The position numbers and the translations under genes are program-made. A DNA stretch of 50,837 nt from Rhodocyclaceae bacterium (lineage in GTDB: Bacteria; Pseudomonadota; Gammaproteobacteria; Burkholderiales; Rhodocyclaceae), in the NCBI GenBank assembly GCA_020445765.1, contig JAGRFY010000004.1:1025-51861 (forward strand), in the 5' to 3' direction. The notes under the pieces are model-generated. The model made no database searches, was not told the DNA's origin, and was given only the letters and a program-made list of their open reading frames with translations. Each line of letters opens with the position of its first letter. Position 1 is the first letter of the stretch. Shown here piece after piece: positions 12,367 through 26,876 of this stretch.

Positions 12367-14670
12367 ATGTTGCTAGCGACAGACCTCGACGGCACCTTCC
12401 TCGCCGGCGATCCGGTGGAGCGCAACCGCCTCTACCAGCTGATCGCGGCCCATCCCGAGATCAAGCTGGTATTCGTCACCGGGCGCGGCCTCGAGGTGGT
12501 CATGCCACTGCTCGCCGACCCGACCATTCCGTCACCCGACTACCTGATCTGCGACGTCGGCGCGACCGTGGTCGAGGGGCCGTCGCTGACCCCGGTGCAG
12601 CCGATCCAGTCGCAGATCGACGTCCTGTGGCCCGGCGAGAGCACGATCGCCGAGGCGATGTCCCGCTATCCCCGACTCGAGCGCCAGGAGGTGCCGCAGC
12701 AGCGTCGTTGCTCCTACCTGTGCACGCCGCAGGACCTGCCGCCCGATATCGACGCAGTTGCCGAGCGCCTGGGCTGCAACGCGCTCTACTCGCAGGACCG
12801 CTACCTCGACATCCTGCCGCCCGGCGTCAACAAGGGCAGCACCTTGCAGCGGCTGGTCGCGCAACTCGGCGTCGATCCGGAACAGGTGCTGGTCGCCGGC
12901 GATACGCTGAACGACCTCGACATGCTCGAAGCCGGCTTCAAGGGCGTGTGCGTCGGCGAATCCGAGGCCGGGCTGCTGACGGCCACCCGCGACCGCGCGC
13001 GCATCCACCACGCCCGGCGCACCGGCTGCGGCGGCATCCTCGACGCCGTCGTGCACTTCAACTTCCTCGGCCCCGGCGGCGTCGAGGCCGCCACGCGTCC
13101 GGCATCGGAGACCGGCCGCTCCGAGCTGGTGATGGTCTACCACCGCCTGCCCTACGAAGAATCCTGGGAGGACGGCCAACTGGTGAGACGCCGGCACAGC
13201 TCGCCGAACGGCATCCTGCCGACGCTGCTGTCCTTCTTCAAGGGCGGACGCAAGGGCGCCTGGGTGGCATGGTCGATCCATGAACCGGAACGAGGCGTTC
13301 CGTTCGAGACCCACACCGGCGTCGATCCGCGCAGCTACCCGAACCTGGTGTGCTCGCGCGTCGCCCTCAGCAAGCAGGACGTCGACACCTTCTACAAGCG
13401 CTTCTCGAAGGAAGCCTTCTGGCCGACGCTGCACACCTTCTGGGAGCGCGCGATCTTCCGCGAGGAAGACTGGGACGTGTTCCTCAAGGTCAATCGCCTG
13501 TTCGCCGAACGCACCGCCGCCGAAGCCGCCGAGGGCGCCACGGTGTGGATTCACGACTACAACCTGTGGATGGTGCCGGCGTTTCTCCGGGAGTTCCGGC
13601 CGGACCTGGTGATCAGCTTCTTCCACCACACCTACTTCCCGTCCGCCGATGTCTTCAACGTGCTGCCGTGGCGACGCGAGATCGTCGGCAGCCTGCTGCA
13701 ATGCGACTACGTCGGCTTCCACATCCCGCGCCAGGCCGAGAACTTCGTCGACGTGGCCCGCGGCGTCGCACCGATCAAGCGGGTCGAGGTGACCAACTGC
13801 GCACCGACCTTCCGTACCTACGGCTGCGCCGTCGGGCTCGAGGAATACACGACGGCGATCGAGGTGCATGGACGGCGCATCGGGCTCGGCGCCCATCCGG
13901 TCGGGCTCGACGTCGGCCGTGTCCGCGAAGTCCTCGCCCAGCCCGAAGCCAGCCGTCGCATGGAACGACTGCGGGAGCAGCTGAAGGGCATTCGGGTGAT
14001 CCTGTCGGTGGAGCGGCTCGACTACACCAAGGGGACGCTCGAAAAGCTGCTGGCCTTCGAGAAGCTGCTCGAGGAATACCCGGAACTGCAGGGTCGGGTC
14101 ACGCTGATCACGGTCTGCGTCCCGGCCGCCCGTGAGATGACGATCTACCGCAGCCTTCAGACCCAGATCGAACAGGCGGTGGGGCGCATCAACGGTCGCT
14201 ACTCGCGGGTCGGCTGGACCCCGGTGCAGTTCTTCTTCCGCGCCTTCCCTTTCGACGAGGTGGTCGCCTACTACGCCATGGCCGACGTCATGTGGATCAC
14301 GCCACTGCGCGACGGCCTGAACCTGGTTGCCAAGGAATATGTCGCCACCCAGGGGCTGACCGGCGGCAGCGGCGTGCTGGTGCTGTCCGAGTTCACCGGC
14401 GTCGCGGCCGAGATGCACGGCGCGATCCTGACCAACCCGCACGACCCGGCCGATCTGCGCGACAAGTGCTACTACGGCGTCACGCACCATCGCGGCGAAG
14501 CCCGTGCCAGCCTGCGGGAGCAGTTCGACATCGTCTGCAGCAACGACCTCCAGAGCTGGGCGGAAGGGTTCCTCGCCGCCGTCCGCGCGTCCAGGCAGGC
14601 CGCCCAGGGCGACCCGGGCGACGAAAGCGCCGCCGATCTTCGCTGCGAAGCGGGCGCATTGCCGGATTGA
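12367..14670 (+). CDS. ggpPS: Bifunctional glucosylglycerol-phosphate phosphatase/synthase
   Basis: A 767-residue two-domain enzyme for the compatible solute glucosylglycerol. Residues 1-250 are a HAD phosphatase (LLATDLDGTFL at the start, GDTLNDLDML later) of the sucrose-phosphatase type, expected to dephosphorylate glucosylglycerol phosphate. From about 257 on is a GT20 synthase joining ADP-glucose to glycerol 3-phosphate. The segments SPNGILPTL, SKEAFWPTLH, HDYNLW, FFHHTYFPSADVFNVLPWR and CDYVGFHIPR follow cyanobacterial GgpS rather than trehalose-6-phosphate synthase OtsA. The same phosphatase-synthase fusion is known from Azotobacter-type GgpPS. GGAG eight bases before the ATG supports the start. 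It follows the MFS gene by 50 bases and is followed by a terminator-like hairpin. Trehalose-phosphate synthase is the main alternative. Confidence 0.9.
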   Translation: MLLATDLDGTFLAGDPVERNRLYQLIAAHPEIKLVFVTGRGLEVVMPLLADPTIPSPDYLICDVGATVVEGPSLTPVQPIQSQIDVLWPGESTIAEAMSRYPRLERQEVPQQRRCSYLCTPQDLPPDIDAVAERLGCNALYSQDRYLDILPPGVNKGSTLQRLVAQLGVDPEQVLVAGDTLNDLDMLEAGFKGVCVGESEAGLLTATRDRARIHHARRTGCGGILDAVVHFNFLGPGGVEAATRPASETGRSELVMVYHRLPYEESWEDGQLVRRRHSSPNGILPTLLSFFKGGRKGAWVAWSIHEPERGVPFETHTGVDPRSYPNLVCSRVALSKQDVDTFYKRFSKEAFWPTLHTFWERAIFREEDWDVFLKVNRLFAERTAAEAAEGATVWIHDYNLWMVPAFLREFRPDLVISFFHHTYFPSADVFNVLPWRREIVGSLLQCDYVGFHIPRQAENFVDVARGVAPIKRVEVTNCAPTFRTYGCAVGLEEYTTAIEVHGRRIGLGAHPVGLDVGRVREVLAQPEASRRMERLREQLKGIRVILSVERLDYTKGTLEKLLAFEKLLEEYPELQGRVTLITVCVPAAREMTIYRSLQTQIEQAVGRINGRYSRVGWTPVQFFFRAFPFDEVVAYYAMADVMWITPLRDGLNLVAKEYVATQGLTGGSGVLVLSEFTGVAAEMHGAILTNPHDPADLRDKCYYGVTHHRGEARASLREQFDIVCSNDLQSWAEGFLAAVRASRQAAQGDPGDESAADLRCEAGALPD

Positions 14671-14756: not shown

Positions 14757-17700
14757 ATGCCTGACGCCGTCCAACCGCGTGCGCCCCGCATCAGAACGGC
14801 GGGGCTGCGCACGCGGTTCCTGCTGGCGATGGTCGCAGTCGCGTTTCTGCTCGGCGGCGGCACCGCGCTGCTCGGGGTATACCAGCTGCGGAAGGCCGGC
14901 GAGGCCGAGGCGCGAGAGCTGGCTGCGAACCTGCGGAGCGCACCCGACGCCGCGAATGGCGCCGAGGCGCTGTTGGCGCGGGCGCGCACTTGGCCCCGCG
15001 TGCTGGCGGCCGGCATCTACGACAAGGCCGGCCGCTTGCTGGAAGTTGCCGTCGATTCGCCCGCCGCAGGTGATCGCGCCCTGCTCGCTGTGCCCGGCCG
15101 CCACTGGGACGTCAGCACGCCGACCGCGGACGGACGGCAACTCCGGCTGATCATCGACAGCAGCACGACGCAGGCGCACGAGCGCCGCCTGATCGCGCTT
15201 GCTGCAGCGTGGCTGCTCGCGGTGACGCTCGCCGCCGCCGCCGCGCTCCGTTTCGGCTTCGGGCGTCGGATCGCGGCCGTGGACGATGATCTGCGGCGAG
15301 CGCACGCAATCGTTGCGCGGCATGCGCGGCCGTCGGCCACAACGAGCAAGGACGCTAGCCTGGTCGAGGCAATCGAACAGATCGTCTCGAGACTCGAACG
15401 TCGCGAGCGCGAACTTGCCGACTCACGCCGCCGGGCAGCGGCGGCGTCGCAACTCAAGGACCAGTTGTCGGGCACCCTGTGCGAGGAGGTGCGCAAGCCG
15501 CTGCACCAGCTGATCGAACGCCTCGAGGTGCTTTCCCGTGCCAAGTTGCCGGGCACGGCCGGGCCGGTCGCCGCGGTCGCCCGGGCATCGTCGCAGTCGC
15601 TGCTGGCGCGCGTGGACGACATGCTCGACGTCTGTCAGCTCGAATCCGGCCATGTCGTGCTCGATCCGCAGCCGCTCGACCTGCGCCAACTGGTCGAGGA
15701 TGTGGTCGACGAGATCAGCCCTCAGGCCTATGGACGAGGTCTCGAACTCGGCCATCTGATCGCGCCCGGCTTCGCGTCGGGCTGGATCGGCGACGGGGCA
15801 CGACTGCGACAGTTGCTCTCGCGCCTGCTCGGGCATGCCATTGCGGCCACTCGACACGGCGAGATCGCACTTCAGATGTCGGTCGACAACGAGCCACGCA
15901 CGGCCGCGCCGACGGTCCGCATCGGCGTTCACGCATCCGGCGAACTGGCGACGGTCGGCGGCGAGGAAGGGCTCGGCCTGCTGCTGTGCCGGCAACTGGT
16001 GGCGCTGATGGAAGGCGAGTTCGAAGCGGACGACGGCGACGGCCTGAATTTCCGCTTGCGACTGCCGCTCGCGCCGGATCACGACATCACCCAGTTGGTG
16101 ACGCCGGGCGTCGCCCAGGGAATGGCCGTTCTGGTGGTCGAGCTGAGCCAGGTCGGACGTACCCACCTGAGGGCCGAACTGGTCGCCGAGGAAGCGACGG
16201 CGACGCTGTGCGCGAGCGCCGACGAGGCCATGGCTGCGATCCGCGCAGCCCGACAGCAGGGCCGGGTATTCGCCCTGGCGCTGGTCGATGCCGCACTGCC
16301 GCCGGATCGGCTCGCTCAGCTGCGTCGCGCTGCCGGCGCGGATGTTCGAAGCTGGGTGCTGACGCGACCGCTGAATCGAGGCCGCGAGGATGATCCGGGC
16401 GACTGGTGGGCGCAATTGGCAAAGCCATTCCGTCGCGCCCGACTGCAGGGCCTGCTGCGCCAGCTCGGCGACATCGCCGCCCGCGACGTGGTTCCTGCCG
16501 CGCCGCCGCCGATGCCGCGCGTCAATGCCCGCGTGCTGGTGGTGGACGACCACCGCACCAACCAGGTGATCGTGCGCGGCATGCTCGAGTTGCTCGGCGC
16601 CACGGTGGAACTGGCCGACGGCGCAGTCGCGGCCCTGGCGGCCCACGGCGGCTCCCGCTACGACCTGATCCTGCTGGACTGCCGGATGCCGATGATGGAC
16701 GGCTACGACACCTGTCGGGCGATTCGCGAACGGGAGGCCATCGTCGGCGGACGGACCCCGATCGTCGGCATGGACAGCGAGGCCTCCCCCGAAGACCTGG
16801 AGCGCGGGCGAGCCGCCGGCATGGACGGCCGCATCCTGAAGCCATTCACGATGGAAACCCTGGCCGACACCCTGCAACAATGGGTCGATGTCGTACCGCT
16901 GCCGGAGGCGCTGCCCACCGACAGCACGGGCGTGATGCTGCAGGCCGGGGAGGGCATCGACGGCATTGCCCTGCAACGCCTGTCGGAGGCGATCGGCGAC
17001 TGCCTCGGCCAGATCATCGAGCCGTTTCTCGAGGACATGCCGGCACTGCTTCGGGAACTGATGCGAGGCGCGGCCGAGGACGACACCGACGGTCTCAGGA
17101 TGTACGCCCAGCGAATCCGCGGCGCGGCGGGCAACCTGGGTGCCTACCTGCTTGCACGTTCGGCCGAACAGCTCGAACAGCGTGCCATCAATGGCGGTGA
17201 CTGTATCGCGCAGGTCGACAGCGTGACCGCCGAGTTCGAGCGCGTGGCCGGCGCGCTGTCCCGGCTGATGCGCGGCCATCCGACCCAGCCACCGACCGTT
17301 TCGATCGACGGCGGCCGCGTCCTGGTGGTCGACGACGACCGCAGCACACGCACGGCGCTGCGTCTCGCGCTGACCCTCGAGGGCTTCCGCGTGGTCGAGG
17401 CCGAGGACGGCGGCGCAGCGCTGGCGCGGGCCCTCGCCGAACCACCCGAGCTGGTACTGCTCGACGCCGGCATGCCGGCACCGGACGGCTTCGAGACCTG
17501 CCGCCGGCTGCGACTGCTGGCCGGCTGCAAGGAAGTGCCGGTGCTGATGCTGACGGCCATCGACGACCGACACGCGATCGCCAGCGCGTTTGCCGCCGGT
17601 GCCTCGGATTTCCTGACGACGCCGCTGCACCTGGATCTGGTGGTGCAGCGCGTACGCCACACCATCGATACCTGCCGTGCCGAGCACCACGTTCGTCATC

Positions 17701-18215
17701 TCGCCTACAGCGACGCCCTCACCGGCCTGCCCAACCGCCGACATTTCCAGGAACGCTTCGAGCAGCAGATCGCCATCGCGCAGCGCGAAAACGGCAGCCT
17801 GGCGCTGATGTTTCTCGACCTCAACCGCTTCAAGGTGGTCAACGACACCCTCGGCCACGACGTCGGCGACCTGTTGCTGCAGGCCGTCGCCGGTCGCCTG
17901 GGCCACAGCGTGCGTGGCAGCGACAACATCGCCCGGCTCGGCGGTGACGAATTCACGGTGGTGCTCGAATCGCCGGCATCGACCGCAGTGATCACCGCCG
18001 TCGCAGGAAAGATCGCCGAGGAGTTGTCGCAGCCCTACCAGATCGACGGGCACGACATCTCGGTCTCGCCGAGCATCGGCATCGCGCTGTTCCCGACCGA
18101 CGGCGACGACCCGGCGCGGCTGATGCGCCACGCCGATGCCGCCATGTACCGCGCCAAGAAATCAGGCCGGCCCTTCCTGTTCCACGGTGACGCGAATGCC
18201 GCCGATGTCTCGTGA
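14757..18215 (+). CDS. Membrane diguanylate cyclase with degenerate kinase, receiver and HPt modules
   Basis: This is a 1,152-residue protein counted from ATG 14757; a TTG eight codons upstream is possible. Two membrane segments flank a periplasmic loop of about 95 residues. A histidine-kinase-like region follows, but the H-box reads LCEEVRKPL with Glu243 where His should be, the N-box lacks its Asn, and the G1 Asp is missing. A weak receiver remnant comes next, then an intact-looking receiver (D597-D598, D641, K695). The HPt-like region has Gln785 in place of His (AQRIRGAAGNLGA). A third receiver has Thr955 in place of the conserved Lys. The C-terminal GGDEF domain is complete (1062-1066), with an RxxD inhibitory site at 1053-1056, so it should make c-di-GMP. 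The gene overlaps the convergent radical SAM gene by 54 bases. Confidence 0.9.
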   Translation: MPDAVQPRAPRIRTAGLRTRFLLAMVAVAFLLGGGTALLGVYQLRKAGEAEARELAANLRSAPDAANGAEALLARARTWPRVLAAGIYDKAGRLLEVAVDSPAAGDRALLAVPGRHWDVSTPTADGRQLRLIIDSSTTQAHERRLIALAAAWLLAVTLAAAAALRFGFGRRIAAVDDDLRRAHAIVARHARPSATTSKDASLVEAIEQIVSRLERRERELADSRRRAAAASQLKDQLSGTLCEEVRKPLHQLIERLEVLSRAKLPGTAGPVAAVARASSQSLLARVDDMLDVCQLESGHVVLDPQPLDLRQLVEDVVDEISPQAYGRGLELGHLIAPGFASGWIGDGARLRQLLSRLLGHAIAATRHGEIALQMSVDNEPRTAAPTVRIGVHASGELATVGGEEGLGLLLCRQLVALMEGEFEADDGDGLNFRLRLPLAPDHDITQLVTPGVAQGMAVLVVELSQVGRTHLRAELVAEEATATLCASADEAMAAIRAARQQGRVFALALVDAALPPDRLAQLRRAAGADVRSWVLTRPLNRGREDDPGDWWAQLAKPFRRARLQGLLRQLGDIAARDVVPAAPPPMPRVNARVLVVDDHRTNQVIVRGMLELLGATVELADGAVAALAAHGGSRYDLILLDCRMPMMDGYDTCRAIREREAIVGGRTPIVGMDSEASPEDLERGRAAGMDGRILKPFTMETLADTLQQWVDVVPLPEALPTDSTGVMLQAGEGIDGIALQRLSEAIGDCLGQIIEPFLEDMPALLRELMRGAAEDDTDGLRMYAQRIRGAAGNLGAYLLARSAEQLEQRAINGGDCIAQVDSVTAEFERVAGALSRLMRGHPTQPPTVSIDGGRVLVVDDDRSTRTALRLALTLEGFRVVEAEDGGAALARALAEPPELVLLDAGMPAPDGFETCRRLRLLAGCKEVPVLMLTAIDDRHAIASAFAAGASDFLTTPLHLDLVVQRVRHTIDTCRAEHHVRHLAYSDALTGLPNRRHFQERFEQQIAIAQRENGSLALMFLDLNRFKVVNDTLGHDVGDLLLQAVAGRLGHSVRGSDNIARLGGDEFTVVLESPASTAVITAVAGKIAEELSQPYQIDGHDISVSPSIGIALFPTDGDDPARLMRHADAAMYRAKKSGRPFLFHGDANAADVS

Positions 18216-19226
18216 CGCCGCCGCGGCACGCCCGGCATGGCGGGCACGCAACTGGCCGCAACCGGCGTCCACCTCCTGGCCTGCGGAATCCCGCAGCTTG
18301 GTGAGGATTCCCCGGCGGTACAGCGCCAGCGACATCGCCGCCGCCCGCTGCGCCGACGGACGGCTCAGGCCACGACCATCGATCCGGTTGAGCGGGATCA
18401 GGTTCAGTACCGCGTATCGGCCGGCGAGCATGGCCGCCAGCGCCTCGACCTCGTCGTCGCCATCATTGACACCCTCGATCAGCGCCCATTGCAGCTGCAG
18501 CGGATAGCGTGATCGGCGCGCGTAGTCATCGGCCAGGTCCACCAGCTCGGCCGGATCGAACTCGGCTGCACGGGGCAGCAATTCGCGCCTCAGCACCGCT
18601 TTCGTGGTATGCAGCGACAGGGCCAGCGCCGGCTTCACCGGTGACGTCGCCAGACGCGCGAACAGGCGACGATCGCCGACCGACGACACCACCAGGTTCT
18701 TGTGGCCGATCGCGCCCTGGCGGGCGATCAGTTCGATCGCCTCGAAGACATTGTCGAGATTGTGGGCGGGCTCGCCCATGCCCATGAACACGACCTTGCC
18801 GACCGGCCTCAAGGTACGCGCCAGGGCCAGTTGGGCGACGATCTCGGCACTGCCGAGCTGGCGCTCGAGGCCATCGCGACCGGTCATGCAGAACACGCAG
18901 CCGACCGCACAGCCGACCTGGGTCGACACGCACAGACCGCCCCGCGGCAGCAGCACGCTTTCGACCATCCGGCCGTCGCCGAGGGCGACCAGCAGACGCT
19001 CCGAGCCGTCGGTTGCCGGATGCCTCGCGGCCAGTCGCGCAATAGCGGCGAGGCGCTCGCGCCATGCCGGCAGGATCCGGCGCACGGCGGCCGGAAAGTA
19101 GTCGTCCGGCCGGCCGTGCCCCGATTCGGAGCCGATCGCCCGCAACCACATCCGCAGCAGGATGTCCTCGTGGCAGGGCTTGGCACCGGCAGTCCGCAGG
19201 AAGCGTCGCAATTCTTCGAGTTTCAT
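18162..19226 (-). CDS. RlmN/Cfr-family radical SAM RNA methyltransferase
   Basis: A 354-residue radical SAM enzyme. The cluster motif CAVGCVFC lies in LCVSTQVGCAVGCVFCMTG, where the first Cys matches a conserved Cys of RlmN. MGMGEPAHN, SLHTTK and the C-terminal EVDAGCGQLRA, with the mechanistic Cys that forms the protein-RNA bond, are also present. RlmN methylates C2 of A2503 in 23S rRNA and A37 of some tRNAs; Cfr methylates C8 of A2503. At 354 residues it is shorter than E. coli RlmN (384) and differs from it around FCMTG. It is a lone gene away from the usual rlmN neighbours, so it may be a paralogue. It overlaps the cyclase gene by 54 bases at the 3' end and is divergent from the RND adaptor. 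Confidence 0.87.
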   Translation of the reverse strand: MKLEELRRFLRTAGAKPCHEDILLRMWLRAIGSESGHGRPDDYFPAAVRRILPAWRERLAAIARLAARHPATDGSERLLVALGDGRMVESVLLPRGGLCVSTQVGCAVGCVFCMTGRDGLERQLGSAEIVAQLALARTLRPVGKVVFMGMGEPAHNLDNVFEAIELIARQGAIGHKNLVVSSVGDRRLFARLATSPVKPALALSLHTTKAVLRRELLPRAAEFDPAELVDLADDYARRSRYPLQLQWALIEGVNDGDDEVEALAAMLAGRYAVLNLIPLNRIDGRGLSRPSAQRAAAMSLALYRRGILTKLRDSAGQEVDAGCGQLRARHAGRAAAASRDIGGIRVTVEQEGPA

Positions 19227-23693: not shown

Positions 23694-26018
23694 TCAGCAG
23701 ACCCGGCGCAAGGCCTCGGCTGCCAGATAGCACTCGATCTCGGTGACCGCCTGGCCCAGCCGGGCGCCGACGTCGGCCAGCGCGGCGTTGATGCGCCCGG
23801 CATCGAGTTCGTCGTCGGCAAGCTCGATCTCGATCCGGCCCAGGGTCTGGGCGATCCTGCCGAGGCCGAGCGTCATGCACGCGCCCTTGAGCGCGTGAAC
23901 CCGTTCGCGGACTTCGACCCGCGCACCGGCCACACCGCGTTCGACGGCGATCGCGGGTCCGGCCGCCAGTGCGGCCAGCCGCGGCAATTCGATCTCCAGC
24001 AGCTCACGGTAGCACGCGGCATCGTCGCCGCAACGCCGGATCGCCGGCTCGGGATCGAGTTCGCCGACCGGAGCCCGCGGATTGCGCTGGGACTTGCCGG
24101 CGAGAAACATCGGGATCTGCCCGGAAGACTCGCCGACGCCACCCGCGATCGCGTCGAGCTGGCGCAGTACCACGCCGAGGTCGAACGGTTTCGTCAGATA
24201 GCCCCGCATGCCGAGCGCCAGGCACTGTTCGCGCTCCTCCACCAATGCGTGGGCGGTCAGCGCAAGGATCGGGGGGGCTGAATTCGCCAGGCGGTTCATG
24301 ATCGCGATCGCCGCTCGTCGACCGTCGAGGCGCGGCATCTGCAAGTCCATCAGGATTACGTCGTAGCGTCCGGGAGCAGCCATCTCGAGGGCCTCGGCGC
24401 CATCTTCCGCAGTGTCCACCCGACCGACGTGGGGCGCGAGCAACGAGGCGGCGACGCTTCGGTTGATGGCGTTGTCCTCGACCAGCAGCACCCGCATCGT
24501 CGCGATCGACGCGGTGTCGGCCGGTGACGCGTCGACACAGGGCAGCGGGGCGTCGGCCGGGACCAGCTCGAACGGCACTTCGAGCTTGAAGCTGGCGCCG
24601 CCGCCACTGCGATTGAGGGCGCTGATCCGCCCACCCATCGCCTCGGTGAGACGCCGGCAGATGGCCAGGCCGAGACCGCTGCCGCCGAAACGCCGGGTGA
24701 TCGATGCATCTTCCTGGCAGAACGGTTCGAACAGATCGTCGATACGATCCGGCGGCAAGCCTGGTCCGGAGTCGTTCACGACGATTTCGAGCCACCAGCG
24801 TGCCTTGGCCCGGCTGTCGTCGAGACGGGCACGCGCATCGACCGTGATCTCGCCGCAAGCCGTGAACTTGACCGCGTTGGCGAGCAGATTGGTGACGATC
24901 TGGCCGAACCGTGTGCAATCCCCGAAGAGCCGCGGCGGCAATGCGAGCTGGCCGGTCATGTCGATTCGCAATCCCTTGTCGGCCGCATCCCGCTCGAATC
25001 CGGCAACGCAGGACGTCAATACCCGCGATGGATCGAATGGCGCCTGCTCGAGATCGATTCGACCCGATTCGATCCGCGAGAAGTCGAGCACGTCGTCGAC
25101 CAGCCGGCGCAATTGGGCGGTCGAATCCCGCAGCATCCGGCCGAGTTCGCCGGCATCGTCGCGATGCGGTCGCTCGGACAATAGCTGGGCAATGCCCCAG
25201 ATACCGTTCAACGGCGTACGGATGTCGTGACTGATCGCCGCCAGAAACATCGATTTCGCACGGTTGGCGATGCTTGCGTGCTCGGCTGCCTGCTCGGCCC
25301 GCCGCAGCAGGTCGTTGTGCTCCGAATCGCGCTGCTCGAGCGCTTCGGCCATGCGATTGAACGAATCCGCGAGCGAGGCGACTTCACGCTCGCCGCCACC
25401 GGGTGCCCGCACCGACAGTTCGCCCGAGGCGATGGCCTCGGCGCTGCAGGCGAGACGTGCGATGCCGGCGGCCAGCCATCCACCGAGCAACCAGGAAAAC
25501 AACGCCGCCAGGCCCATGCCGATGGTCGCGGCAACGGCCGCGAGGCGCCGGGCATGGTCCAGTTCGGCTCGTGCGCTGCGATTGTCGATGCCGAGTTCGA
25601 TCGTGCCGACCTGGACGTCTCCGGCGCGAACGCCGCCAACGACATCGAAGATGCCATCCTCGTCGAGGGGCGGGTCGGCAGGATCGAAGGGATCGGCGAG
25701 GGCGCGCGCATCGCCGATTGCGAGCAGTTCGCGCCGATCGGCGTCGCGCACGCGCACGAACGAAGCCTGCCGACGCTCGACCAGGCCCTCGGCGACGACC
25801 GCGATCTTGGCAAGGTCGTAGGAAACCACGGCGTCGGCGATCGCTGCCGAGAACAGTGCCAGCGCGGTATCGGCGCTCTGTCGGAGCTGGCGCTGCTGCG
25901 CGAGCTCCATCTGGCCGAGGGCCGAGCCGATGGTCACCGTCAGCGCCACCGCCTCGATCGCCGCGATGCCGACGATCGCCTTCCAGCGGAACGAGAGTCC
26001 TTTCCCCGGCCCGCCCAT
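23694..26018 (-). CDS. Hybrid sensor histidine kinase (HAMP-HK-receiver-HPt)
   Basis: A 774-residue membrane kinase of BarA-like layout. It has a first membrane helix, a periplasmic sensor loop of about 120 residues, a second helix, HAMP, a HisKA domain with phospho-acceptor His264 (ISHDIRTPLNG), an HATPase domain (NLLANAVKFT, DSGPGL, GGSGLGLAI), a receiver with Asp558 (ILMDLQMP) and TKPF Lys, and an HPt with His708 (VHALKG). All phosphorelay residues are intact, in contrast to the cyclase at 14.8-18.2 kb. Its ATG follows the TGA of the PhnD-like gene without a gap (TGAATG), so the two are translationally coupled. The output regulator is not in the window. Confidence 0.93.
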   Translation of the reverse strand: MGGPGKGLSFRWKAIVGIAAIEAVALTVTIGSALGQMELAQQRQLRQSADTALALFSAAIADAVVSYDLAKIAVVAEGLVERRQASFVRVRDADRRELLAIGDARALADPFDPADPPLDEDGIFDVVGGVRAGDVQVGTIELGIDNRSARAELDHARRLAAVAATIGMGLAALFSWLLGGWLAAGIARLACSAEAIASGELSVRAPGGGEREVASLADSFNRMAEALEQRDSEHNDLLRRAEQAAEHASIANRAKSMFLAAISHDIRTPLNGIWGIAQLLSERPHRDDAGELGRMLRDSTAQLRRLVDDVLDFSRIESGRIDLEQAPFDPSRVLTSCVAGFERDAADKGLRIDMTGQLALPPRLFGDCTRFGQIVTNLLANAVKFTACGEITVDARARLDDSRAKARWWLEIVVNDSGPGLPPDRIDDLFEPFCQEDASITRRFGGSGLGLAICRRLTEAMGGRISALNRSGGGASFKLEVPFELVPADAPLPCVDASPADTASIATMRVLLVEDNAINRSVAASLLAPHVGRVDTAEDGAEALEMAAPGRYDVILMDLQMPRLDGRRAAIAIMNRLANSAPPILALTAHALVEEREQCLALGMRGYLTKPFDLGVVLRQLDAIAGGVGESSGQIPMFLAGKSQRNPRAPVGELDPEPAIRRCGDDAACYRELLEIELPRLAALAAGPAIAVERGVAGARVEVRERVHALKGACMTLGLGRIAQTLGRIEIELADDELDAGRINAALADVGARLGQAVTEIECYLAAEALRRVC

Positions 26019-26876
26019 TCAATCGCCTCCCGCTTGCGGAAGGCCACCCAGATCGAGGGCGCGGATCGAATCCCAGTCGCTGTCGATGGCGGCCTGAATC
26101 CCTTCGAAGCGCAAGCGCTGCAACGCGGCCCGGCCGGCTGCGCTGAGTGAGAGCGCCTGCATGCCGGCGACGAATCCTCGAATCGCATCCGCCTCGACAC
26201 CGGGCAGGGCGGCGAAGGCGTGGGGCGCATACTCGGCGCTCTTCCAGACCACCCGCAGCTTGTCGCGCACTTCCGGGCCGATTGCATCGAGGGTGCGCTC
26301 GATGCCGCCGCCGGCGACATACAGGCCTCGGGCGACGCCGAGATACACCGAATCGTGGGATGCGACATAGGCCGGCACCACCCGGATGCCGAGCCCGGCC
26401 AGCGATGCCATCGGCACGACCGTCGCGGCGAAGGCCGCAGGCGACGGAAACGCCATCTCGCGACCGTCGAGTTCCGCGACCGAGTCGAGACCGCCGTCGG
26501 CGCGGGTGACGATCAGTCCCCGCAGCCGGCGCCCCTGCTCGCGGGCGAAGGCACGGTAGCCGGGTTGGCGGCTGAACACCGTGTAGTGCAGGGGATTCAT
26601 GTAGGCAAGCTGATATCGACCCTGGCGCAGCCTGCGTTCGAATTCCGGGATGCTCGGTGCCGTCGCGAAGCGGAAGGTACAACCGGCCGTCCGCGAAACG
26701 GCTGCCAGCATCGGAATCCAGACCGCCGCGAGCTCGCTCGGTGCCTGTTGCGGCACCACACCGACGCTCAGCGGTTGCAGATTCCGGCATGCGGCGCGGG
26801 ACGTTGGAACGGCAATCAAGACAGACGCGAACAGGGCCAACAGGTGGCGCTGGGCTCGGCCGCGGGCAGCGCGCAT
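26019..26876 (-). CDS. PhnD-like periplasmic binding protein, probable sensor partner of the kinase
   Basis: A 285-residue secreted protein. A signal peptide (LLALFASVLIAVPTSRA, cut near residue 28) precedes a PhnD/phosphonate-binding-like fold with LSVGVVPQQAPSELAAVWIPML, YQLAYMNPLHYTVF and DSVYLGVARGLYVAGGG. PhnD relatives bind phosphonate, phosphite or other small anions for ABC transporters, but no transporter gene is nearby. Instead it is coupled end to start with the hybrid kinase gene, so it most likely binds a ligand and signals to the kinase. A GGAG site seven bases before the ATG supports the start. Its ligand is unknown. Confidence 0.86.
   Translation of the reverse strand: MRAARGRAQRHLLALFASVLIAVPTSRAACRNLQPLSVGVVPQQAPSELAAVWIPMLAAVSRTAGCTFRFATAPSIPEFERRLRQGRYQLAYMNPLHYTVFSRQPGYRAFAREQGRRLRGLIVTRADGGLDSVAELDGREMAFPSPAAFAATVVPMASLAGLGIRVVPAYVASHDSVYLGVARGLYVAGGGIERTLDAIGPEVRDKLRVVWKSAEYAPHAFAALPGVEADAIRGFVAGMQALSLSAAGRAALQRLRFEGIQAAIDSDWDSIRALDLGGLPQAGGD

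Follow-up and report, generated by a model that had tools for sequence, protein, structure and literature searches.

The window analysed here is the whole stretch of 50,837 nucleotides taken from contig JAGRFY010000004.1 of a Rhodocyclaceae bacterium, whose genome (G000) is a 4.84 Mb assembly of 210 contigs, listed as 94% complete. An open reading frame (ORF) on its plus strand, 14757-18215, encodes a protein of 1,152 amino acids. We identified the gene from the ORF translation, Pfam matches and the predicted fold as a diguanylate cyclase carried on a pseudokinase scaffold. Residues 1-199 (14757-15353) form an N-terminal input region in which hydropathy marks two hydrophobic stretches, at about 20-42 and 143-168, on either side of a short and presumably extracytoplasmic segment. 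Alignment places a pseudo-HisKA domain, the dimerization and histidine phosphotransfer (DHp) domain, at residues 200-300 (15354-15656), with Glu243 in place of the phospho-histidine, and a pseudo-HATPase at residues 310-440 (15684-16076), which has lost the N-box Asn and the G1/F-box/lid stretch and keeps a remnant of G2. A receiver-like domain, REC1 (residues ~452-580; 16110-16496), is recognized by its alignment columns and by the strand-helix pattern of the predicted model. REC2 (590-712; 16524-16892), a pseudo-histidine phosphotransfer (HPt) domain with Gln785 replacing His (735-838; 16959-17270) and REC3 (852-970; 17310-17666) were placed by alignment. In the predicted model a linker helix (959-984; 17631-17708) leads into the GGDEF diguanylate cyclase domain (976-1140; 17682-18176). 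The window protein stops 12 residues past this domain, where its relatives go on into an EAL domain.

Pfam recognizes HATPase_c (29.4 bits, above its own cut-off), Hpt (36.0 bits), GGDEF (169.7 bits; 5.6e-50) and two stretches of Response_reg in the window protein. HisKA scores 22.2 bits, below the Pfam cut-off of 26.9, and REC1 is not recognized. Reading of the translation confirmed Glu243 in TLC[E]EVRKPL, Gln785 in YA[Q]RIRGAAGNLG and Thr955 in FLT[T]PL, as well as Asp641 and Lys695, so that the substitutions of the original prediction stand at the positions it gave. That prediction passed over the loss of EAL, the deletion of the ATP lid, the loss of Thr673 and the whole of REC1.

Homologues were gathered from the genus, family, order and class at thresholds of E 1e-60 to 1e-180, in searches whose overlapping sets gave matches in 10/61, 31/395, 5/6 (genus), 7/399 and 14/369 genomes. 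The protein alignment has 51 rows: 48 intact HK-HPt-REC-GGDEF-EAL relatives and three proteins that form the window clade, namely the window protein, L011 (genome G001) and L012 (G002). These come from congeneric genomes of different species and share 77-78% identity, with open frames of about 1,140-1,150 residues in all three. Listed completeness is 100% for G001, 89% for G002 and 80% for the congener G003. Two Rhodocyclaceae isolates assembled from metagenomes, HKST-UBA163 and HKST-UBA165, are the nearest relatives to carry a name. Left out of the rows were L002 (a paralogue without GGDEF), L134 (the window itself), L042 and L043 (which repeat L012 and L011), and, as partial, L044, L047 and L050; in L044 the kinase His is present and the kinase frame has no GGDEF motif. 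A further 42 loci (L045, L046, L048, L049, L051-L088) stand outside the alignment. In L011 and L012 HATPase_c falls below its Pfam cut-off and no HisKA match was obtained at a threshold of 0.01. Pfam found no HAMP domain in any of the three clade members and finds one in an intact sister, L092.

The relay residues are lost in all three members and in none of the 48 intact relatives, save for a single intact row with Arg at the REC3 Lys. At the HisKA phospho-histidine the clade has Glu, Glu and Asp (here and below with the window protein first), against His in 44/44 intact relatives whose sequence extends this far. At column 360, where all 47 intact relatives with the region have the N-box Asn, the clade has His, Gln and His, and the G1/F-box/lid stretch is deleted in every member, so the N- and G1-boxes are broken as had been predicted. 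The HPt His, invariant in the 48 intact proteins, is Gln, Arg and Gln. Residue 673 of REC2, which is Thr or Ser in 48/48, is Asp, Gly and Gly, and Lys955 of REC3, present in 47/48, is Thr throughout the clade. The alignment of orthologues at residues 243, 785 and 955 thus returned substitutions common to all clade members. Among the 48 other relatives we found no independent loss, although a more decayed homologue could be missed by searches that kept strong matches only.

An EAL-type motif follows GGDEF in all 48 intact relatives (in one it reads EVL) and in none of the three clade members, which end 9-13 residues past alignment column 1143. EAL and the relay residues are jointly missing in the three members and jointly present in all 44 intact rows covering the H-box. 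No EAL remnant was detected by tblastn, the best E values being 0.21 in the window and 0.12, 0.19 and 0.42 in the examined stretches of G001 and G002. We considered a domain hidden downstream by a frameshift or mis-assembly and rejected it, given the lack of a remnant in these searches and the identical end in all three members.

In the clade every one of the three receivers lacks a single residue of the five that define such a domain, and still has its phospho-acceptor Asp. D597, D598, D641 and K695 of REC2, and D859, D860, D903 and T933 of REC3, are retained in all three members. The original prediction counted REC2 as an intact receiver on the strength of D641 and K695; these two residues are indeed conserved, but Thr673 is gone in every member. 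REC1 is absent from 17/48 intact relatives and variable in the others; the three members have Leu at its second acidic position, where L013 and L014, the nearest intact genes, have Asp. The idea that REC1 was already dead in the intact sisters was discarded, since the acidic pair, the Asp and the Lys of this domain are all present in L013 and L014. In the HPt, Arg has replaced a conserved Lys in the clade and also in L013 and L014, and this change therefore predates the clade.

The cyclase domain presents a different picture. All three members have the GGDEF motif at 1062-1066, D1021, K1026, N1029, D1030 and R1053xxD1056, which we take to be, respectively, the catalytic GG(D/E)EF motif, the metal- and substrate-binding residues and the RxxD I-site. 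The predicted integrity of this domain, I-site included, was borne out at the sequence level. Some intact relatives carry minor variants of their own: in L135 the REC3 Lys is replaced by Arg and the I-site contains a Gln, and GSDEF replaces GGDEF in L138 and L139.

Judged by these residues, the clade proteins lack what defines an internal-phosphorelay hybrid kinase (the H-box His, the N-box Asn with G1/F/lid, and the HPt His) and, without a C-terminal EAL, what defines a bifunctional GGDEF-EAL enzyme. A recognizable kinase fold with lost catalytic residues is that of a pseudo-histidine kinase, and REC1, REC2 and REC3 are pseudo-receivers in all three members, each missing at least one of DD, D, T/S and K. 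The diguanylate cyclase motifs are complete throughout. Loss of the histidines by chance is unlikely. In the window genome the HisKA His is present in all of the 30 best of 76 HisKA matches (peptides read; the ranking favours intact ones) and the Hpt His in 21/22 Hpt matches, the window protein being the sole exception. According to PMC12632262, 0.9% of HisKA domains and likewise 0.9% of Hpt domains lack the His.

To gauge selection, dN/dS, the ratio of nonsynonymous to synonymous substitution rates, was calculated pairwise between the three members by the Nei-Gojobori method. The values are 0.14-0.17 for HisKA, 0.20-0.23 for HATPase, 0.13-0.18 for REC1, 0.075-0.096 for REC2 (the lowest of any domain), 0.09-0.15 for HPt, 0.13-0.21 for REC3 and 0.11-0.17 for GGDEF; the highest values, 0.38-0.56, belong to the input region. 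Elsewhere in the protein the synonymous distances lie at 0.4-0.9; they may have reached partial saturation, in which case the true ratios are lower. The intact pair L013/L014 gives 0.05-0.29 across the same domains. All cytoplasmic domains of the clade, including the dead ones, are thus under purifying selection, an indirect sign that the pseudokinase may still be integrated in signalling.

Conservation of near-invariant columns, those at least 95% conserved in the intact rows, differs among the domains. The clade keeps 39/40 in GGDEF, 22/28 in REC3, 20/27 in REC2, 6/7 in HPt (the His alone being lost), 3/4 in the linker (957-985), 12/24 in HATPase and 11/23 in DHp. GGDEF differs from DHp plus HATPase (23/47) with a Fisher p of 2e-7, and the kinase core from REC2, HPt and REC3 together with p 0.002, in both cases over columns that are not independent. 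At 28 of the 56 DHp columns that are invariant in the six nearest intact genes, the three members share one new residue, a pattern more like remodelling than noise. Substitution along the stem with constraint thereafter is in keeping with re-use, as opposed to decay still under way. The gene probably encodes a repurposed, synthesis-only cyclase, as judged from its sequence, and is not in recent decay, because purifying selection holds in every cytoplasmic domain and 39/40 of the GGDEF columns are kept. In this respect the original prediction of a pseudokinase scaffold, not simple decay, is supported, as the same losses recur in three genomes of different species.

In trees of REC2 to GGDEF the three members form one clade with support 1.0, sister to the intact same-genus pair in G003 and G005 with support 0.997. 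The clade stem measures 0.68-0.69 substitutions per site, whereas the tips are only 0.06-0.12 long. Intact-His orthologues, which the original prediction had named as the sign of decay in one strain, do occur in the family at large, including these two same-genus genomes; none lies inside the clade, and the conversion is therefore older and lineage-specific. A single match at E <= 1e-60 was obtained in each of five genus genomes; G004, the sixth, has no cyclase homologue at that threshold.

Gene neighbours bear on the origin as well. In the window the cyclase gene and a convergent radical-SAM gene (18162-19226, minus strand) overlap at their 3' ends by 54 bases (18162-18215). A radical-SAM gene like this one (71% identity) adjoins the intact gene in both G003 and G005; in the latter the intact gene, EAL included, stops a short way before the radical-SAM gene's matched end. 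In G003 the intact gene also lies near a homologue (77%) of the gene at 28.5 kb of the window. G002 has the radical-SAM, HlyD, RND, kinase and 28.5 kb genes in the order of the window, on a contig other than that of its cyclase. The radical-SAM gene is near the end of the one contig and the cyclase at the start of the other, and because of this the two are probably adjacent in the genome. In G001 the cyclase gene directly adjoins the HlyD gene and no radical-SAM match was found at E <= 1e-60, though 7/8 of the tested genomes have one. The neighbourhood is only partly conserved, since the trehalose gene that adjoins the cyclase in the window and the intact cyclase homologue occupy separate contigs in G003 and G005 and are about 250 kb apart in G088.

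Taken on the sequence comparisons, the clade gene has a single origin and is an orthologue converted in place, the latter because there is one copy per genome (E <= 1e-60) and the radical-SAM neighbour is shared with G003 and G005. A paralogue was considered instead and rejected on the copy number, the tree and the shared neighbours; the incomplete genomes leave some doubt. Two further observations concern the flanking genes. G004 keeps the radical-SAM gene (63% identity; L124, G004:C13:182000-199000), and this 17 kb stretch has no cyclase homologue at E <= 1e-12. The trehalose-type gene (12367-14670) is a fusion with a phosphatase-type (HAD) domain ahead of a glycosyltransferase family 20 domain, and its homologue in G002 is read in two separate frames.

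An AlphaFold2 model of the window protein, made from a 25-row alignment, has a mean predicted local distance difference test (pLDDT) score of 78.1 and a predicted template modelling (pTM) score of 0.38, and each domain shows the secondary structure expected of its own fold. The linker helix connects REC3 to GGDEF in the model and, by alignment, is equal in length to that of the nearest intact genes. A linker of this length would be compatible with control through the coiled-coil register, a mechanism described for enzymes of the REC-GGDEF type (PMC8041772).

From these observations we propose, in a judgement that is evenly poised, that the gene encodes a synthesis-only diguanylate cyclase on a pseudokinase scaffold, switched by conformation and derived from a bifunctional ancestor. 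The ancestor would have been the widespread bifunctional hybrid kinase. By its domain order, HisKA would have phosphorylated a receiver, and HPt would have passed the phosphate to the last receiver, which would have steered GGDEF-EAL. Sequence comparison shows that the common ancestor of the three congeneric genomes lost the kinase His, the N-box, G1 with the lid, and the HPt His, together with one switch residue per receiver and EAL in its entirety. The conversion spared the domain folds, the phospho-acceptor Asps and the active site of the cyclase. The product is most likely a membrane-anchored, dimeric enzyme that only synthesizes cyclic di-GMP (c-di-GMP). Its DHp and linker helices would hold the dimer, and the remodelled scaffold of DHp, catalytic ATP-binding (CA), REC and HPt domains may relay input from the sensor region, or the state of a docked partner, by conformation to REC3, the linker and GGDEF. 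c-di-GMP would presumably feed back at the I-site.

As the histidines are missing, neither autophosphorylation nor HPt transfer is expected of a clade protein, from what is known of these families, and no breakdown of c-di-GMP because EAL is missing. From its motifs we infer c-di-GMP synthesis by the window protein; conformational control of the cyclase is plausible. With more reserve, we suggest a phosphate-free relay: the two dead domains, pseudokinase and pseudo-HPt, would have been reshaped for the binding of a new ligand or partner, whose state they would signal to the synthesis-only cyclase by conformation, the change having taken place in situ in one lineage. If true, the intact form in the same genus is a natural control for such a relay.

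Several observations weigh against the proposal of a synthesis-only cyclase switched by conformation. The retained Asp641, Asp903 and acidic pairs are unnecessary for a purely conformational device and fit phosphorylation in trans. HisKA has a dN/dS of 0.14-0.17 in the clade against 0.04-0.09 in three intact pairs, and the constraint on this domain is therefore partly relaxed. GGDEF, at 0.11-0.17, is somewhat looser too, against 0.06, 0.06 and 0.13 in the intact pairs. Nor is GGDEF exceptional when the six nearest intact genes are the reference: 82/108 of the columns invariant in them are kept, alongside 52/64 for REC2, 24/31 for REC1, 30/44 for HPt, 58/88 for REC3, 38/60 for HATPase and 22/56 for DHp. 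The input region is poorly conserved, with an identity of 0.51-0.54 over residues 1-199. In the predicted model the DHp helices reach a pLDDT of only about 55-68, and a pTM of 0.38 makes the arrangement of the domains uninformative. Finally, at least two of the three clade members come from metagenome assemblies.

The alternative that survives best, credible though unlikely, is that the protein acts as a response regulator in trans, with another kinase phosphorylating Asp641 (or Asp903) and the dead kinase serving as membrane anchor and dimer frame. Retention of the acidic pairs, both of these Asps, K695 and T933 in all three members would be in keeping with this, as would the low dN/dS of REC2, and the 76 HisKA matches in the window genome could include a phosphate donor. 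However, the Thr and Lys of a receiver normally couple phosphate to conformation, and the clade has lost Thr673 of REC2 and Lys955 of REC3; the HPt between these two receivers has no His either. The original prediction had proposed a particular partner, the hybrid kinase at 23.7-26.0 kb of the window, and this did not hold up. G001, listed as 100% complete, keeps the cyclase and has no match to this kinase at E <= 1e-80, weaker paralogues being possible. As an obligate partner the kinase was rejected, with no match at that threshold in G001, G003, G004, G005 or G261; it is present in G002 (64%) and G088 (52%). In the genus it is patchy, with the gene in G000 and G002 and no match at that threshold in the other four genomes. 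This gene (23694-26018) has Pfam matches to HAMP, HisKA, HATPase, a receiver and, weakly, Hpt, and it adjoins a gene for a phosphonate-binding-type periplasmic protein (26019-26876).

Rather improbable is a constitutive cyclase restrained only by feedback at the I-site, in which the scaffold would be a switchless dimerization frame and the ancestral protein would have been fixed in its synthesis state. The joint absence of EAL and the relay residues, the retained I-site and the partly relaxed constraint on HisKA are all compatible with it, but a switchless frame would need neither dN/dS values of 0.08-0.23 across all cytoplasmic domains nor a new, shared set of DHp residues. That the gene is simply a pseudogene on its way out can practically be dismissed: several catalytic sites and one domain are lost, the stem is long (0.68) and the congener G004 has no copy at E <= 1e-60, yet the frames remain open over some 1,140-1,150 residues in three genomes at 77-78% identity, dN/dS is low in every cytoplasmic domain and GGDEF keeps all but one of its near-invariant columns.

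Conformational switching of a synthesis-only cyclase, the reading we prefer, draws on elements that are known singly. Pseudo-histidine kinases are an accepted idea, defined by a recognizable kinase fold without the residues for at least one kinase function, and the mechanism of bacterial pseudo-receivers has been called a mystery (both PMC12632262). Both kinds of domain are thus known, while their mode of signalling is poorly understood. In the clade described here, a single protein has changes in its kinase, its HPt, its receivers and the opposing enzyme, and the loss maps to one branch. Intact orthologues survive within the genus, two genomes having them next to a shared neighbour gene. The output, c-di-GMP, is easy to measure, which makes the re-use of a signalling scaffold without its chemistry directly testable. 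In the literature searched, which was mostly outside subscription journals and in some cases confined to the best 10-15 papers of up to 570, we found no cyclase described whose fused kinase and HPt both lack His. What appears to be new is the combination of pseudokinase, pseudo-HPt and pseudo-receivers ahead of an apparently sound cyclase, probably derived from a bifunctional enzyme by loss of EAL.

The closest comparison is with the intact HisKA-HATPase-REC-HPt-REC-GGDEF-EAL relatives in the family, order and class, such as L013 and L014, which are 46-51% identical to the window protein; the intact genes of G003 and G005 share its radical-SAM neighbour. These relatives have the same domain order, GGDEF active site and I-site. 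They retain the phospho-His residues, the N-box, the receiver Thr and Lys and EAL, whereas the window clade has none of these. A Caulobacter hybrid kinase also has a kinase domain without the conserved His, and the passage describing it mentions no fused cyclase (PMC11481889). DivL of Caulobacter resembles the window protein in having a histidine-kinase fold with the phospho-His replaced; it is described as lacking kinase and phosphatase activity, as dimerizing and as binding DivK~P (PMC4211667). DivL has Tyr for His and is reported to act towards CckA, whereas the window clade has Glu or Asp and a deleted lid and, unlike DivL as described there, continues past its dead kinase into a fused HPt and a GGDEF output. 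On the output side, residues 852-1140 match PleD, among the closest solved chains, at about 6e-54. PleD has three domains, namely receiver, pseudo-receiver and cyclase, and phosphorylation of its receiver switches it on (PMC12632262). The window protein likewise has receiver, pseudo-receiver and GGDEF in a single chain, but differs from PleD in that its receivers each miss one of the five defining residues and are preceded by kinase and HPt domains. With DgcR-type enzymes it shares a REC joined to GGDEF by a coiled-coil linker helix; DgcR is switched by modification of the Asp of a normal receiver (PMC8041772), whereas REC3 of the window protein has lost its Lys.

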